Origin: Gemmatimonadota bacterium
GTDB taxonomy: Bacteria; 4572-55; J002
Assembly (NCBI GenBank): GCA_003697105.1
Contig: RFFQ01000068.1
Coordinates: forward strand, 1-24,572
Length of the DNA stretch: 24,572 nucleotides
Reading direction: 5' to 3'
Shown here: one piece after another, positions 2,039 to 9,024 of the stretch
Layout: each line of letters opens with the position of its first letter
Position numbering within the stretch: the first letter of the stretch is position 1
Position numbers and translations under genes: made by a program
The notes under the pieces: generated by a model
Databases searched by the model: none
The model's input: the letters and a program-made list of their open reading frames with translations, nothing else
What the model was told of the DNA's origin: nothing

Positions 2039-3229
2039 TTAGAGTACTTTGACCACAACCAGCGTCAAGTCATCGTGGGGCTCCGCCTCCCCCACAAAAG
2101 CATTCACATCCATAAGAATATGTTCGCGAATCTCCCGGGCGGATGCCCGCGGCGGTATTTCAGCTAAGGTTTTTAGTAAGCGATCCGTACCATACATCTG
2201 CCCTTTTGTATTTGTCGCCTCATCAATTCCATCCGTAGTGAAAATAATCACATCATCCGGTTGCAATTGGAGACGTTTCTCATCATAGTTCAAATGGGGA
2301 AATTGACCTAACGGGAGCCGTTCTTCGCAATAGGCTAACTCGCACCATTGCTGGTTGCGTAGCAAAATGGGTGAGGGTAATCCCGCCATGGCATAGGTCA
2401 TGGTCAAAGTTTGTAGATCAAATTCGGCGTAACAGAGCGCTACGAACAACTTTTTATGAATGTGGCGGCATAATAATCGATTCACCCGCCGTAGAATATC
2501 TGCCGGGCAGGAATGGCTCTCCACTGCCATTTCGACCATTCCTTGTGAAATTGCCATCAACATCGCGGCGGGAACCGATTTTCCAGAAACATCACCAATC
2601 ACAACGCCTAAATTACCCTGATGATCTAAGATGTTGTAGAGGTCACCCCCGACTTTAGCAGCAGGTTTGGAATACCCATCAATTTCAAAATAGACAAATG
2701 CTGGAACCTGATGCGGCATCATATCTTGCTGGATTTGGGTAGCAATCTCCAACTCTCGTTTGAGTTCAGATTCTTCTCGAATCCATGTTTCCATTAAGCC
2801 GCTCGCCTCTTCAATCCGTTTAACCAAAACCGGCATAATTTTGATCGCAATTTCCGGGTAGAGCATCATTAAGCGCACAAAGTCATCACGACGGATCGTA
2901 AGCAATTCCGTATGACCCGCCGAGATCAAGGTTGCCGGATGGTATGTGATCCGAAACAAAGCGAGATCATTGATGACCTGCCCCCGATACAATGTCGCCA
3001 ACGGTTTTGTATTCCCGTTTTTGTACACATGCACTTCACCTTCTACAATAATGTGGAGTGCCGAGGCTTCTTCACCCTGCCGCGTAATAACCTCCTGTTG
3101 CGGAACGGTTTGTTCGGCGGCAATTTTCGCAATTTCGGTCAACAACTTTTTATCAACACTCTGCCGATAGTCAAAGTTTCGGAGTACCGGAATTTGCAGG
3201 AGTAACCCCATTTTCTGGTACATTTTCAT
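2039..3229 (-). CDS. Cyclic-nucleotide-binding-fold/SpoIIE-type PP2C phosphatase
   Basis: Residues about 20-140 are a cNMP-binding (Crp-like) beta roll: ITRQGEEASALHIIVEGEVHVYK, then the phosphate-cassette region INDLALFRITYHPATL. The cassette normally has FGE-aL...PR-AT; here the E and R are not kept, so cAMP binding is doubtful and another ligand, or none, is likely. A helix of about 30 residues leads to the SpoIIE/RsbU-type PP2C domain (about 170-396). Its metal-site motifs are all present: KVGGDLYNI, VVIGDVSGKSVPAAMLMA, DDVIIFTTDGIDEATN and EPHDDLTLVVV. The enzyme should dephosphorylate a Ser on an anti-sigma-factor antagonist (STAS) protein, but no STAS or RsbW kinase gene is nearby. GAGGTGA precedes the ATG by 5 nt. 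A good promoter lies 46-74 nt upstream. Confidence 0.9.
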   Translation of the reverse strand: MKMYQKMGLLLQIPVLRNFDYRQSVDKKLLTEIAKIAAEQTVPQQEVITRQGEEASALHIIVEGEVHVYKNGNTKPLATLYRGQVINDLALFRITYHPATLISAGHTELLTIRRDDFVRLMMLYPEIAIKIMPVLVKRIEEASGLMETWIREESELKRELEIATQIQQDMMPHQVPAFVYFEIDGYSKPAAKVGGDLYNILDHQGNLGVVIGDVSGKSVPAAMLMAISQGMVEMAVESHSCPADILRRVNRLLCRHIHKKLFVALCYAEFDLQTLTMTYAMAGLPSPILLRNQQWCELAYCEERLPLGQFPHLNYDEKRLQLQPDDVIIFTTDGIDEATNTKGQMYGTDRLLKTLAEIPPRASAREIREHILMDVNAFVGEAEPHDDLTLVVVKVL

Positions 3230-3303: not shown

Positions 3304-3434
3304 CCGGAAAAACAAAACGGAACTAATCCATTGATATTCTTTATGTTATTGTGATGGTTGTGTGACATCTAAACGGTTAGTAAAAAGTACCTTTGGTAAA
3401 ATTAACCTTTTATTTTAGGAAAGGAAGGACAACT

Positions 3435-4154
3435 ATGCAACGCTCATCAAGCTTCATCATTCAATTCATTTTAGTATTTCTAATGGGTTGGTCTATTTTT
3501 GGATATGCGGAAGAGATCGATCCTGAGGAAGGTGATGAATTAGTCGTATCCTATTGCCGGGAGTGCCATTCATTAGCTCGTGTTTACCAAACACCCTATA
3601 CCAAGGCACAATGGGAAGAAGCAATTGACCGTATGATCAAGGAAGGATTGGAGATTAATAGTGCAGATCGGGGCAATATTACCACCTATCTAGCCAGTCT
3701 TCACAAACCGGACTCTATCCTCAAATTAATTGGAAACTTCCATTTCATTTTGGTTCATTTCCCAATTGCCTTGATTCTGATTATCGGCTTGTTTGAATTA
3801 ATTGCGATCCTTACGGGGGAGCTACCTCAAATCAATCTGTTACATTGGCTCTGGCGTCTTGCACTTCTCTCAATTCTCCCCGTGATAATGCTGGGATTTT
3901 TTCTGGTACTTGGAAATGAGCATCTTTCCGCCACACTAATGTGGCACCGGAATTTAGCATTGTTGACGGCGCTTCTCACCCTAGTGGGATTGATTTTACG
4001 AGAGATTGCGGTCAAAAACCCGCAAAAATCGATGATTTGGGGGTACCGGTTGGTGTTATTACTGATGATGGGCGCTGTGGGCTTAACCGGACACTTAGGC
4101 GGAATCAGCGTTCATGGTGATTTTGTAACCTCATTGATGGAATCTTTTTTCTAA
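3435..4154 (+). CDS. Mono-haem cytochrome c fused to DUF2231-like membrane domain
   Basis: The protein has 239 aa. Residues 1-24 are a signal peptide or membrane anchor ending near GYA-EE. A small class-I cytochrome c domain follows: YCRECH gives the haem attachment site (Cys41, Cys44, His45), and a helix ending in TTYLASLH closes the domain, as in many soluble cytochromes. From about residue 95 come four membrane helices. The first holds FILVHFPIALILIIG, the HFPIAL signature of DUF2231-type membrane proteins. A haem domain outside the inner membrane joined to a quinone- or haem-like membrane domain suggests electron transfer, but the partner is unknown. The ATG at 3435 is chosen because GGAAAGGAAGG ends about 6 nt before it and the leader starts there; an in-frame start at 3393 has no ribosome site. 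Confidence 0.85.
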   Translation: MQRSSSFIIQFILVFLMGWSIFGYAEEIDPEEGDELVVSYCRECHSLARVYQTPYTKAQWEEAIDRMIKEGLEINSADRGNITTYLASLHKPDSILKLIGNFHFILVHFPIALILIIGLFELIAILTGELPQINLLHWLWRLALLSILPVIMLGFFLVLGNEHLSATLMWHRNLALLTALLTLVGLILREIAVKNPQKSMIWGYRLVLLLMMGAVGLTGHLGGISVHGDFVTSLMESFF

Positions 4155-4254: not shown

Positions 4255-4992
4255 TCACATACCTATCAAGTTGATATGCATTGTACCGAGCCAATCCCCT
4301 AACAAGAACTGCATTCGTCCAATCAGCAATGAGATACGCGCCATCACGGTAAAACCGAAGGATGCCCCAAAGGAAATCATTAAAAACCAGATACCGGCAC
4401 GGGCGGTCACACCCATTGCACCTTCATGCTTAATCGAAAAGAAGAAGTACGCCAAGCACGCTACCAAGCCAAAAACGATAATGGCATTGTTAATCACGCC
4501 ACCGGAGCTACCAAACACCATCCACGCATCTGGACTGGTCGCAATTCCTGCCCACCCTTGCTTAACCAGTTCGCCGGTAGCGGGCACAAATACCTCGGTT
4601 CCCGGGTTTAAGGAGAGCATAGAGCCATGTAGCTGTTTGATGATATTCGATTGCATTTCCGCCGTCAGGGCAATTCCCGCACCGAAACCGACACTCAGGG
4701 CAATGGGCCAGCGGCTCATCCAAGCAATATTCGGGAAAAAGCGTGTCAGGTACATCAGCCCAAACACCAATCCGAAAACCAGCATAAAGCCTTCAAACCC
4801 GCTGGGTCCGGCTTGGAAGGGTTCAATCAAGTTTGGTTTTAGAATTTGCCACCAGGCAATCGGCACCATATACCCCGCCGAAACTCCCACGAACAAGTGT
4901 TCTGCCAGTTTGTATACCGGATTATCATTGTACAAAAAGCTGTATAGTGCTAATGTGAGCAACGCCGCTACCCAAATTCCAAAAACATCCAT
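4255..4992 (-). CDS. Polytopic membrane protein, last gene of the DUF6754 operon
   Basis: A 245-aa protein of unknown function with about six membrane helices. The N terminus (MDVFGIWVAALLTLALYSFL) goes straight into the membrane and is followed by YNDNPVYKLAEHLFVGVSAGYM. Further helices are around FMLVFGLVFGLMYL, ALSVGFGAGIAL, AIIVFGLVACLAYFFF and WFLMISFGASFGFTV. Between helices 4 and 5 there is a 45-residue extramembrane loop with GTEVFVPATGEL. No enzyme motif, cofactor-binding Cys/His cluster or transporter signature is visible. AGGAGTAGGAGA lies just before the ATG. The gene starts 16 nt after the stop of the preceding gene, so it is surely in the same operon. It is probably a membrane subunit of a complex with the neighbouring products. 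Confidence 0.8.
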   Translation of the reverse strand: MDVFGIWVAALLTLALYSFLYNDNPVYKLAEHLFVGVSAGYMVPIAWWQILKPNLIEPFQAGPSGFEGFMLVFGLVFGLMYLTRFFPNIAWMSRWPIALSVGFGAGIALTAEMQSNIIKQLHGSMLSLNPGTEVFVPATGELVKQGWAGIATSPDAWMVFGSSGGVINNAIIVFGLVACLAYFFFSIKHEGAMGVTARAGIWFLMISFGASFGFTVMARISLLIGRMQFLLGDWLGTMHINLIGM

Positions 4993-5008
4993 GGTTATCT
5001 CCTACTCC

Positions 5009-5872
5009 TTATGGGTTTGATTGGTTGCGAGTCATAAAAAACGCCACATTTCCAATTATGATAAAAATCACAATCACAATGTGTGCAATTGACTGTGATG
5101 CCATCCCAGCGGAAGCCGAACCGAGTTCAAATTTGGGATACTTTTGAGCTAACAGGTTTTCATATTCCGCCGCACCTTTCAATCCCGCCATTAATCCGGT
5201 CAATTGTCCGGTATCCAAAAATGGATACAGTTCAGGAGCACTCACGGCGGTACACCCGCCGGCAAGCGGGAAATTATACCGCGTTTGCCCCACCGGCACC
5301 CACGAATCTGCCATACCCGGCGAGCCTGCCGCTAATGAGACCACGAGGTCTACATCCTTTAAGTTCGTGATTCCTTTCATCAACGGAAAGTCTTTAATGG
5401 GTTTGGCTTCACGGGTATCCAGCGGATAGGCTGTGGCAATATCATTCCCTAACTGGTCGATCACAACCGGACCACCTACCTTATATCCCAAGAATATAAA
5501 ATCCTCTCCATAGGTTTTTTCCACACCGTATGCCGCTTTTAAGTCCTCCGCCGCCTCAAATATGGCTTGTTCTGAGAGGGGTGCGCCCGGCGCCCATAAA
5601 TTCATGGTGATAATCTTCAAATCTTTCTTTAAGAGATGGCGGACTATCGCCAAATTCATGGGATACAACTCCGGCATAGAACCGGGGTCGTAATCTCCCG
5701 AAACAACCACAACACTACCCGGTTCCAGGTTTTCCACAAATTCAAAGATATTCCGAACTGCCGGGGTATAGCTCATGGGCAATTTCGGTTTGAAGATCAA
5801 GGGAAGCGCCACGGCAAAAGCGATAAACAAAAAGATGATTCGACGATCCAGATTAGAAATTTTCTCGAGCAT
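5009..5872 (-). CDS. Extracytoplasmic protein anchored at both ends, DUF6754 operon
   Basis: The protein has 287 aa. Residues about 11-30 (IIFLFIAFAVALPLIF) are an N-terminal membrane anchor and residues about 262-282 (IAHIVIVIFIIIGNVAFF) a C-terminal one. The globular part between them looks alpha/beta, with strand-like segments SVVVVSGDYDPG, LKIITMNLW, DFIFLGYKVGGPVVIDQLG and DLVVSLAAGSPGMADSWV. GDYDPGS and AAGSPG resemble ligand loops of Rossmann-like folds, but no family is recognised. With one helix at each end the globular part must face the same side as both tails allow, most likely outside the cytoplasm. GAGGAGG precedes the ATG. The gene is 15 nt after the stop of the previous gene and 16 nt before the next. 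Confidence 0.8.
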   Translation of the reverse strand: MLEKISNLDRRIIFLFIAFAVALPLIFKPKLPMSYTPAVRNIFEFVENLEPGSVVVVSGDYDPGSMPELYPMNLAIVRHLLKKDLKIITMNLWAPGAPLSEQAIFEAAEDLKAAYGVEKTYGEDFIFLGYKVGGPVVIDQLGNDIATAYPLDTREAKPIKDFPLMKGITNLKDVDLVVSLAAGSPGMADSWVPVGQTRYNFPLAGGCTAVSAPELYPFLDTGQLTGLMAGLKGAAEYENLLAQKYPKFELGSASAGMASQSIAHIVIVIFIIIGNVAFFMTRNQSNP

Positions 5873-5887
5873 TTGATCCTCCTCTTC

Positions 5888-6532
5888 TTACTCATTGCCC
5901 AGATATGATCGATCAATACCGACTAAAATACGCAACGCTTGCGCAATCCCACCAAAAGCGGCACCGATCAAAATTGCGCGTTTCGCTGCCACATTCGGTT
6001 TGTTCATAATCCAGTCCGTAATTTGAGGATCAAAGATTTTCAAAAACATGGTGTCGGAGAGCCACTTTCCAATGGGTACTTGACCCAACATTACGATGGT
6101 TGCCGAAACCAGCAAGAGTCCCGCTTCTAAATTGCGCATGCGGAACGCCCGGAATGCCGCCGAAGCAATGAAGAATGCCAACATCGAAAACATGGTGGCT
6201 TGCATGGGCACATACATGTAATTAAACATCCAGCCAAACAGGTTGGTCGTTACATTATAATCTCGCCAAATAAACCCGGCGAGTGCCATCACGACCAGAC
6301 CCACCAACAACACAACCCGATAACCTGAATCTTCACTCTTCATAGAAATACGACGAACATTGACCTGAACCAAGTTCCCTATCCCCAGCACAACCGCAAA
6401 TGCGCTCGCAATAATCACCGCATTACGAAACGAGTTATTCAACGTTTGAAATGTCTCATGGGGAATGAAGAAACTGAAGATCATAATCAATCCGGAGATA
6501 AAGGCAATTGCTAACGGTACTTCTCGACGCAC
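5888..6532 (-). CDS. Polytopic membrane protein, third gene of the DUF6754 operon
   Basis: The GTG at 6532 is taken as start: AAAGGAG lies 7 nt before it, the product begins MRREVPLAIAFISG, and it leaves an 17-nt gap to the preceding stop. An upstream ATG at 6580 would overlap the previous gene by about 30 nt and add an arginine-rich tail with no ribosome site. The 214-aa product has about six membrane helices (IAFISGLIMIFSFFI, VIIASAFAVVLGIGNLV, VVLLVGLVVMALAGFIW, MFSMLAFFIASAAFRAF, GLLLVSATIVMLGQV, ILIGAAFGGIAQALRI). The short segment MRREVP at the start would be cytoplasmic. No family or catalytic motif is recognised. It is the second of the two polytopic subunits in this operon. Confidence 0.78.
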   Translation of the reverse strand: MRREVPLAIAFISGLIMIFSFFIPHETFQTLNNSFRNAVIIASAFAVVLGIGNLVQVNVRRISMKSEDSGYRVVLLVGLVVMALAGFIWRDYNVTTNLFGWMFNYMYVPMQATMFSMLAFFIASAAFRAFRMRNLEAGLLLVSATIVMLGQVPIGKWLSDTMFLKIFDPQITDWIMNKPNVAAKRAILIGAAFGGIAQALRILVGIDRSYLGNE

Positions 6533-6549
6533 AGTTCTACTCCTTTCCC

Positions 6550-7809
6550 TTAATTGACCGCAAATAAGGCGCGATACCATTCGACATTCATGGTGCTCAT
6601 CAGCACCCCGAGTAGCATCAAGACGACAAAAATTGCCTTACCGATATCGGAGCTTTTTAAACTCGCAATCAACCGGGGGTCGCGGGAGAGATACGCACTC
6701 GCCGCGAACAATTCTTCCCCAATCAACGTGTAGTCACAAGCCGCAATAAAAAATGGAATTTGTGCGACCATAGCGGTGCCAGCCACTTGAATTGCTCCCG
6801 CCGAAAACCCGGTTTCCGCCAAGATGAGAGATTCGGCATAGAATTCACCTAAATACAGGTTCGCAGCCGGATGTTCGCGAAGCATGATCCCGTTCACCCC
6901 GGCCACATAGGCAAATTGCTCCTCAGTTAGGAAGCGAACATTCTCCGGCGAATAGGCATCTAACCGTCCGGCATCCAAATAGCCTTCCCGAACCGTTTCA
7001 TCCGCCGCCGTCATAACGATGGGGTCGCGGCAAGGTACAATGAGTTTGGTGTCATATTCAGCGGTAATCTTAGCCACCTCACCCATAATCGCTAAACTCG
7101 CCAGGGTCTGGATGTTGGAGATCACCCCAATTCCCGGCACATACAACACCGGACGCCCCATTTCCGTGGCACGCCCAATCGCTTCTCCCACCGCGGAAAG
7201 CCCCGGAATACGCCGCACAAATAATTCACGCCGTTGCGCCTGAGCGGTGTACCAAAGCACCAAGCCCGAAAAAATAATAACCCCCAGCAAGATGTTTAAC
7301 AGCAAGGAGTTAAACCACTGGGGCTTTGCCATCCCTTCAACGGGAGTCGCCAATCGAGAGCGAATCTCATCGGTAGCGCCGACAGCCTGCACTTTATAAA
7401 AATAGGACTTTTGGTTCTCTACATTGTGATCGGTGTATTCCGTCGTTCCGGCACTGACCTCACCGATTTCCTCATAGGAACCACTCGCACTCGTCGAACG
7501 AAGAATAATATATTTGTGGACTAAGTTTCGGCCCTCACCATCATCTTGTGATTTTTCCCACGTAAGTTGAATAGCGCCACCACCATCATTTGGAACATCT
7601 TTCGCCTTTAATTGGCGGGGCGGCTCCGGAATGGGTGCCGGTAATGCGGGTACAATATCACTCAGATTTAAGGAATCAACGGAAACCGAATCCACTTCCG
7701 TAACTGGTACATCCGGATTGGATTCCTGAGCAGAAGCAGAATCCCCTGCCCAGCTAATCATCAGGAGAAAAGCACATAATCCTAAAAAAACGAAGGTCTG
7801 TTTGTGCAT
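6550..7809 (-). CDS. Fibronectin type III / DUF6754 membrane protein
   Basis: The protein has 419 aa. A signal peptide (about 1-28, cleavage near ASA-QE) is followed by an acidic linker. An Fn3 domain spans about 62-160 (IQLTWEKSQDDGEG, YIILRSTSASGSYEEIGEV, YFYKVQAVGA). A membrane helix lies at about 168-190 (LLLNILLGVIIFSGLVLWY). The region 195-385 matches what is described as DUF6754: RPVLYVPGIGVISNIQTLAS, IVPCRDPIVMTAADETVREGY, VRFLTEEQFAYVAGVNG and AGTAMVAQIPFFIAACDY. A last helix ends near residue 410. The Fn3 domain should be periplasmic, and the DUF6754 part should then lie on the cytoplasmic side. Function is unknown. GGAAAGGAG sits just before the ATG. It is the second gene of the operon, after an intervening hairpin. 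The DUF assignment is from memory of the family. Confidence 0.8.
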   Translation of the reverse strand: MHKQTFVFLGLCAFLLMISWAGDSASAQESNPDVPVTEVDSVSVDSLNLSDIVPALPAPIPEPPRQLKAKDVPNDGGGAIQLTWEKSQDDGEGRNLVHKYIILRSTSASGSYEEIGEVSAGTTEYTDHNVENQKSYFYKVQAVGATDEIRSRLATPVEGMAKPQWFNSLLLNILLGVIIFSGLVLWYTAQAQRRELFVRRIPGLSAVGEAIGRATEMGRPVLYVPGIGVISNIQTLASLAIMGEVAKITAEYDTKLIVPCRDPIVMTAADETVREGYLDAGRLDAYSPENVRFLTEEQFAYVAGVNGIMLREHPAANLYLGEFYAESLILAETGFSAGAIQVAGTAMVAQIPFFIAACDYTLIGEELFAASAYLSRDPRLIASLKSSDIGKAIFVVLMLLGVLMSTMNVEWYRALFAVN

Positions 7810-7826
7810 AACTACTCCTTTCCTTT

Positions 7827-7867
7827 AACAAAAACAAAAAAGGAGACCGTCATGGCTGACGCTCTCC
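7827..7867 (-). terminator. Intra-operon intrinsic terminator or attenuator
   Basis: On the minus strand GGAGAGCGTCA (7867-7857), a 4-nt loop GCCA and TGACGGTCTCC (7852-7842) form an 11-bp stem with one mismatch. TTTTTTGTTTTTG follows. It lies just after the stop of the barrel-sandwich gene and before the ribosome site of the Fn3-DUF6754 gene, so it would make the first gene more abundant than the other four unless readthrough is regulated. Confidence 0.75.
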
Positions 7868-7878
7868 AGATAAAGGTA

Positions 7879-9024
7879 TTATTCTTCAATCATTTCCACA
7901 TTCGCCCGAGGTAGGGTAACTTCTTGCTCAACACCTTCCAATTTTGCCTGTAAGACCCGCACTTTTGCTTCGGTTTCCAAGGCAGTTAATTCCGGTGGTA
8001 AAGCCGTCACCGTACCCAGTATACCAAAATAGGGATTCCGAATGACGCGGATGGGAGTCCCAATATCCATTCCTTTTAGTTCTCGTTCCACATCTTCAGA
8101 GCCGGTGAGATTTTGCATCTCCTCACTTATCGGGATAATAATTTCTGGACGAATCACACCTGCCCGAATTTGAGTTGCGCCGTTGATAGAGGCGTGCCGT
8201 CCAGCAGACTTTTGAAGCAGATGGAACGTTTTCCGCGCCATCGTAATTTGCCCAAACCCTTCCGTGATGACCAAACTGATCCCTAAATCTTCCGAACCGG
8301 TAATCGCCACACCTAAATCGTATCCCAGAAATTCGCGCAAATCACTATCATTAAGACCGCCCACAACGATCCCGCGCACACCGGTATCGATTGCCTTCTG
8401 AATAGCCGCCGCGGTAACCAGAGAACCGCCGCCAATAATCTTATCTTTGCAATCAGGTGTAACAAACGATTCATCCAAAATTTGTGCAGGAGATTCCGTC
8501 ACCACTTTCAGTTCACCGTGGGTCTCTCCACCGACACCAAAAATTCCTTGAATGAACGTACCTACGGTCTCCACGGCAATGCCTTCATTTTCAAAAACGT
8601 CAACCACGACGCCATCTACGTAGGCATTAATCTCAATCGGAATGGGGGGTTCCCGTAAAATCGCTTTACCGGTCACATTGGAAACACTTTCAAAAAAACC
8701 ATCGATGGGGGATTTTACCGTCGATTGAAAAAAACCAAAAAAACCACCACCTTTGGCAATCGGTTCGCCTTTCGTTACGGGGTCACCTTCTTTTTTCAAC
8801 ATGGCTTCCGGCACATCCGATGGATTGATCGTCAATGCACTTGCCACATTCACCGTTTGAATATTTCCGGGTAAATCTGTTCGGGCAACAACCGTATCCG
8901 CTTTAACCCGATCCCCTTTTTTGACGACAATTTGACCCGGCAATGGCAACCGGCGGTCTTTAATCAAAACAGTCTTTTCGGTAACCCGTAACCCAGGTGT
9001 GTATGCGTGTGCCAAAGCTGTCAC
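7879..9024 (-). CDS. Barrel-sandwich-hybrid (RnfC/NqrA-like) and KOW-like protein, head of the DUF6754 operon
   Basis: The protein has 381 aa, no signal peptide and no membrane helix. Residues about 15-50 (LIKDRRLPLPGQIVVKKGDRV, ADTVVARTDLPG) and 75-125 (LKKEGDPVTKGEPIA, STVKSPIDGFFESVSNVTG) are two halves of a barrel-sandwich hybrid, as in the N-terminal part of RnfC/NqrA. No CxxCxxC iron-sulphur motif is present. A middle alpha/beta part (GVRGIVVGGLNDSDLREFLG, SLVITEGFGQI) is not recognised. The last 60 residues (GTPIRVIRNPYFGILGTVTAL) fit a KOW motif. The start is uncertain: GTG at 9024 has GGGAGG only one base before it, while TTG at 9015 is better spaced (10 nt). A peripheral subunit docking on the membrane proteins of the same operon is inferred. 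Confidence 0.78.
   Translation of the reverse strand: MTALAHAYTPGLRVTEKTVLIKDRRLPLPGQIVVKKGDRVKADTVVARTDLPGNIQTVNVASALTINPSDVPEAMLKKEGDPVTKGEPIAKGGGFFGFFQSTVKSPIDGFFESVSNVTGKAILREPPIPIEINAYVDGVVVDVFENEGIAVETVGTFIQGIFGVGGETHGELKVVTESPAQILDESFVTPDCKDKIIGGGSLVTAAAIQKAIDTGVRGIVVGGLNDSDLREFLGYDLGVAITGSEDLGISLVITEGFGQITMARKTFHLLQKSAGRHASINGATQIRAGVIRPEIIIPISEEMQNLTGSEDVERELKGMDIGTPIRVIRNPYFGILGTVTALPPELTALETEAKVRVLQAKLEGVEQEVTLPRANVEMIEE

Follow-up and report, generated by a model that had tools for sequence, protein, structure and literature searches.

The window, meaning the whole stretch of 24,572 nucleotides that was analysed, carries five closely spaced genes on the minus strand, here named A to E. 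These five open reading frames were confirmed where the original prediction had placed them, with gaps of 69, 17, 15 and 16 nt. The features of the locus are as follows, with domain locations and membrane orientations as predicted.

7879..9015, minus strand: gene A, soluble adaptor (putative), 378 aa, start TTG 9015
7836..7867, minus strand: terminator-like hairpin (10-bp stem) and U-tract in the gap between A and B
6550..7809, minus strand: gene B, 419 aa, signal-like helix, Fn3 ectodomain, transmembrane helix (TM), cytoplasmic DUF6754 Rossmann-like domain, TM
7315..7638, minus strand: Fn3 domain of B, residues 58-165, extracytoplasmic
6565..7326, minus strand: DUF6754 domain (PF20539) of B, Pfam match
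5888..6532, minus strand: gene C, polytopic, about six TMs, N-in, 214 aa
5009..5872, minus strand: gene D, TM, extracytoplasmic Rossmann-like domain, TM, 287 aa
4255..4992, minus strand: gene E, polytopic, N-out, 245 aa
4179..4221, no strand: strong bidirectional terminator-like hairpin of 19 pairs, 3' of E, closing the BCDE unit

For gene A, the start codon originally proposed (GTG 9024) was replaced by TTG 9015. The latter is the likelier start because the N terminus reads MAHAYTPGL or nearly so in 19 aligned relatives, the profile match to A begins at 9015, and the spacing from GGAGG is better. Gene C starts at GTG 6532, and its family consensus opens with MRR..PL. The five genes had been described as one operon, with which the conserved gene order agrees. 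However, the terminator-like hairpin and U-tract between A and B (7842-7867; MFE, -20.6 kcal/mol; z, -2.77) leave it uncertain whether all five are transcribed together. Elsewhere in the window, positions 3393-4154 encode a 253-aa DUF2231 protein, convergent with E and with a weak cytochrome-c-like match below the cut-off, and positions 2039-3229 encode a SpoIIE-type phosphatase domain fused to a cyclic-nucleotide-binding domain.

Conservation, copy number and partner genes

DUF6754 was present in 77 of 290 sampled genomes (71 genera). A search of genome contigs with a single protein query gave no match; with an alignment as the query, at least 574 relatives were found. The record titles of the best 80 of these at least 574 matches named Zixibacteria, Coatesbacteria, Latescibacterota, Stahlbacteria/WOR-3, Cloacimonadota, Fermentibacteria, Riflebacteria, Poribacteria, Edwardsbacteria, Eisenbacteria, and unnamed lineages. 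The 122 loci in which gene order was examined were fetched via B, include a few duplicates of one another, and are uninformative on C, D, and E occurring alone. C directly followed B in 149 of 151 cases, D followed C in 146 of 149, and E followed D in 137 of 138. A stood before B in 46 loci, and tandem arrays such as A-BCDE-BCDE-BCDE were frequent. The conservation of order in these loci indicates that the gene set is not a product of chance. As predicted originally, the five genes belong together, by order as well as by co-occurrence across the 290 genomes, and across phyla the order B-C-D-E is fixed. The five genes probably encode the greater part of a so far undescribed membrane machine, with their order unchanged in at least 10 mostly uncultured (candidate) bacterial phyla. 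Since the order is kept in this many phyla and the set occurs in more than a quarter of the genomes sampled, it must do something important.

The linked set also extends beyond the window. A gene for a MutL/GlmL-type ASKHA ATPase (PF13941) adjoins A or the BCDE module in 38 loci (median distance, 48 bp; mostly on the same strand), and MutL is often preceded by S133, which is small, together with a third gene named n7. The gene orders seen included S133-MutL-A-BCDE, BCDE-S133-MutL-A, and BCDE-MutL-A. In the window's genome (G000), n7, S133 and MutL lie together on another contig (C6, locus L165). There, n7 (L165:6260-6700) encodes a small membrane protein with a conserved LSPF..PSRLD.FRG and no Pfam match. 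Thus, the five genes of the original prediction are linked, but the unit also includes MutL and S133 on the other contig. Likewise, the earlier statement that no ATP motif is present is true of the five proteins but not of the system, as MutL is an ATPase. The system's MutL matched PF13941 with 432.6 bits, which places it in the GlmL domain family, and its phosphate and adenosine (ASKHA) motifs were intact in 32 to 33 of 33 full-length module-linked members. A single-sequence search of the PDB with MutL gave no significant relative.

In the co-occurrence sample of 290 genomes (MutL threshold, E < 1e-30), MutL, A and S133 were each present in 72 of the 77 genomes with DUF6754; among the 213 others, MutL was present in 9 (P = 2e-51), A in none (P = 1e-62) and S133 in 3 (P = 6e-58), these Fisher P values being inflated by shared ancestry. 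A was never found without DUF6754. Five genomes with DUF6754 lacked MutL, including G008 (100% complete) and G059 (a single contig), both of which keep S133. In genome G061, B-C is located close to the end of one contig and D-E-MutL at a different contig end (L192 and L041), which suggests that the assembly broke up a single operon of B-C-D-E-MutL. Single-chain fusions of MutL and A, of about 945 to 1034 aa, were found at eight loci (L181-L188) in six genomes. Because these fusions stand apart from BCDE and are without the KOW-like tail of A, MutL-A may serve another job too, and the fusions possibly belong to a second, separate system.

The number of DUF6754 copies ranged from one to seven per genome, with more than one copy in 36 of 77, and full-length A was single copy in 72 of 72 genomes. 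As a rule, a genome carried a single module-linked MutL, a single A and a single S133. On another contig of the window's genome (L003:4753-8006), a second set of BCDE genes occurs without A, so A, although linked to the set as predicted, is not fixed to every module. The B protein of this second set is short (284 aa), with no room for an Fn3 ectodomain. Terminator-like hairpins were found in 8 of 22 gaps of at least 35 nt between A and B and in 3 of 16 between E and the next B, compared to 0 of 48 inside BCDE (11 of 38 at module boundaries versus 0 of 48; P = 5e-5). The copy numbers and the restriction of hairpins to module boundaries fit a shared energiser (MutL, A, and S133) with separately controlled membrane modules.

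Other genes were seen beside the system in some lineages. Glycine cleavage genes lie upstream of the MutL-A-BCDE operon at L069, L082, L086, L092, L097, L099, L103, L105, L106, L119-L121 and L130, and in some of the loci with this linkage the lipoate ligase gene lplA lies close downstream of the operon. In WOR-3/Stahlbacteria and Fermentibacteria, ExbB-like genes, often with ExbD- and TonB-like genes, are located 3' of BCDE (L084, L092, L093, L096, L101, L103, L106, L119 and L120).

Predicted folds and membrane topology

A consists of two barrel-sandwich-like regions, a highly conserved middle domain (TEGFG..MA, GATQIRAGVIRPE), and a C-terminal KOW-like tail. Its match to Biotin_lipoyl was weak, at 22.2 bits only marginally over the cut-off of 22.1. 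Lipoylation of A, considered because of this match and the nearby lplA, was dropped, as the alignment has no conserved modifiable lysine motif.

B matched DUF6754 with 372.5 bits (cut-off, 27) over profile positions 2-256 of 257 and is thus a member of this family. The domains assigned to B earlier all hold, namely, a signal-like N-terminal helix, Fn3, a TM, DUF6754 and a C-terminal TM helix. The Fn3 domain (model residues 58-162) aligned with 4bqb by VIA (Z, 14.2; rmsd, 1.8 Å; 98 aligned residues), and when the whole of B was used with Foldseek, this domain filled the match list. Among relatives, the ectodomain of B varies in length and make-up; it may be just a short Fn3 domain or extend over several hundred residues. 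The element order of the DUF6754 domain in the model of B is TM-H-(beta-alpha)6-TM, and the charge pattern (1.8/4.6/1.8/0.7; n = 69) places the domain inside.

The AlphaFold (AF2) model of D (mean pLDDT, 96.4) has an alpha/beta Rossmann-like domain flanked by two TM helices. Its best PDB match by VIA was 1kjn_A (Z, 9.9; rmsd, 3.4; 140 aligned), followed by many Rossmann folds with Z values of 7 to 9; by Foldseek, TM scores were below 0.45. The matches from both searches were generic. Mean K+R counts of 3.3 before and 1.3 after TM1 and of 1.1 before and 4.0 after TM2 (n = 62) place the domain of D outside. Its conserved residues D60, P63, E68 and P71 lie in the beta1-alpha loop. C and E are polytopic, with charges alternating as N-in for C and N-out for E. 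Most of the five proteins are membrane proteins, in agreement with the original prediction. A Rossmann-like domain is predicted on each membrane face (B inside, D outside), together with two oppositely oriented polytopic subunits, a topology that is based on single-chain models and charge patterns.

B and D share the element order TM-H-(beta-alpha)6-TM. Inspection and the order of secondary structure had raised the suspicion that B and D, and likewise C and E, are paralogues, but this was rejected, as profile-profile scores were insignificant with or without secondary structure. Since no sequence homology was found, the pseudo-symmetry within each of these two pairs is one of secondary-structure order and charge alone. 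No Pfam or NCBIfam family was above the cut-off for C, D or E, and the models of B and D revealed no known transporter fold. Profile searches of the PDB with A, B, C, D and E gave no significant relatives; no solved structure matches the five proteins by sequence. The claim that it has no described function also stands, as the open-licence papers searched contained no mention of DUF6754.

Possible function and comparison with known systems

In our preferred reading (probability, about 0.42), the system is a membrane machine energised by ATP that most likely works as a transporter or extractor, a MutL-A energiser being shared by one to seven BCDE modules. What is directly shown are the gene order, co-occurrence, fusion and copy-number rule, the intactness of the ATPase motifs and, as predictions, the folds and the topology. 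We infer from the same gene set the same complex, and from this transport; the binding of the proteins to one another, ATP hydrolysis by MutL, the contact of A with B and transport as the work done are putative in the same way. MutL, an actin-fold ASKHA ATPase, and A would form the soluble energiser. A may dock this energiser onto the cytoplasmic DUF6754 domain of B at the inner membrane face, and ATP binding and hydrolysis would then drive a conformational change in the four membrane subunits, B to E. Outside, the ectodomain of B (Fn3 or longer) and that of D, which is Rossmann-like, would handle the substrate. A single energiser (MutL, A, and S133) could serve one to seven BCDE modules, according to a logic like that of ECF transporters. 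Whether the system is also an undescribed class, a membrane machine with an actin-fold (ASKHA) ATPase motor rather than an ABC, P-type or rotary one, having a shared MutL-A energiser, exchangeable BCDE modules and Rossmann-like domains on both faces in at least 10 mostly uncultured phyla, is a more tentative proposal, possible but doubtful.

The main rivals to transport or extraction are a scaffold or assembly role and sensing. As a scaffold, MutL would act like the actin-like proteins PilM and FtsA and, with A, organise BCDE for surface assembly, secretion or cell shape, with ATP binding being what matters rather than hydrolysis-driven transport. In favour of this, MutL belongs to the ASKHA proteins and has an MreB-like match, although a weak one (PF21522; E = 8e-4, under the cut-off), the B ectodomains vary in size, which is frequent among surface organisers, and one MutL-A is common to several BCDE modules. 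However, pilus, secretion or division genes are not recurrent beside the module, and D60, P63, E68 and P71 of D resemble a ligand site rather than a strut, so that we regard this role as credible but rather unlikely. Envelope sensing or signalling, in which the ectodomains of B and D would bind a ligand, the signal would cross C and E, and MutL-A would be the cytoplasmic readout, is less likely again. The variable ectodomains of B, the Rossmann-like ectodomain of D, and the occurrence of several modules per genome with one common cytoplasmic readout are consistent with it, but no kinase, cyclase, receiver or DNA-binding domain was found in any component, and two polytopic subunits exceed the needs of a sensor.

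An outer-membrane or lipid-trafficking complex confined to diderm bacteria is quite improbable. Omp85 is encoded in 75 of 77 DUF6754 genomes, and in some lineages a TonB-dependent receptor and ExbB/ExbD/TonB-like genes come after the module. However, there is little enrichment, since Omp85 is found in 272 of the 290 sampled genomes, and G061 and G202 (99 to 100% complete) have the system with no Omp85 match. An outer-membrane-only role is thus unsupported. We give still less weight to the reading towards which the original prediction leaned, an energy complex of Rnf/Nqr type coupled to redox or ions. A matched RnfC_N with 22.0 bits, under the cut-off of 25.6, although a MutL-A fusion reached 29.6 bits, above the cut-off. 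A has 1 cysteine in 378 residues and no iron-sulphur cysteine motif was found in it; Fe-S, flavin and haem motifs are absent, there was no Pfam or NCBIfam match to Rnf/Nqr membrane subunits among B, C, D and E or the five as a whole, and A is tied to an ATPase instead. Neither kinship with RnfC/NqrA nor redox energy coupling was upheld. Equally improbable is that MutL-A and BCDE repair a B12 or radical cofactor enzyme at the membrane, extending the role of MutL/GlmL (PF13941) as the chaperone that reactivates glutamate mutase (PMC4682846), with the glycine cleavage and lplA genes nearby in some lineages in its favour, as glutamate mutase is missing from 71 of 72 genomes with DUF6754 and MutL and the genes next to the module include no other recognisable B12 enzyme.

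In Pfam, DUF6754 is a domain of unknown function, whereas here it is predicted to be Rossmann-like and cytoplasmic and forms part of a fixed system of several genes. Compared to RnfC/NqrA, the likeness is the barrel-sandwich similarity of A and of the MutL-A fusions; the system differs in having no iron-sulphur, flavin or other Rnf/Nqr subunits and in the fusion of A to an ATPase. PilM and FtsA are actin-fold proteins at the membrane and, like MutL, are ASKHA proteins tied to membrane partners, but MutL is of a different ASKHA family and has no pilus or division partners here. In ECF transporters, one energiser is common to several substrate subunits. The resemblance is one of working principle only, in that the copy-number logic is that of one ATP-driven energiser for several membrane modules, whereas the sequences are unrelated and A to E, MutL, S133 and n7 gave no match to an ABC ATPase, ECF-T or S component.

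By family, the ATPase of the system belongs with MutL/GlmL (PF13941), and its ASKHA motifs are intact. GlmE (PF06368, E < 1e-50) was found in 5 of 290 genomes and is absent from the window's genome; the single genome with DUF6754 and MutL that has it, G119, carries a separate MutL adjoining GlmE. The open-licence papers searched held nothing useful tying MutL/GlmL to a membrane complex. The MutL of the system is about 600 aa long with a C-terminal extension, compared to about 460 aa for the glutamate mutase accessory MutL/GlmL, and unlike the latter it is linked to A, S133 and BCDE. The PF13941 proteins of about 600 aa thereby gain a different, testable context beyond the accessory role for glutamate mutase, the only one known for the family, and if MutL drives BCDE, an actin-fold ATPase would be added to the known ways of powering membrane work.
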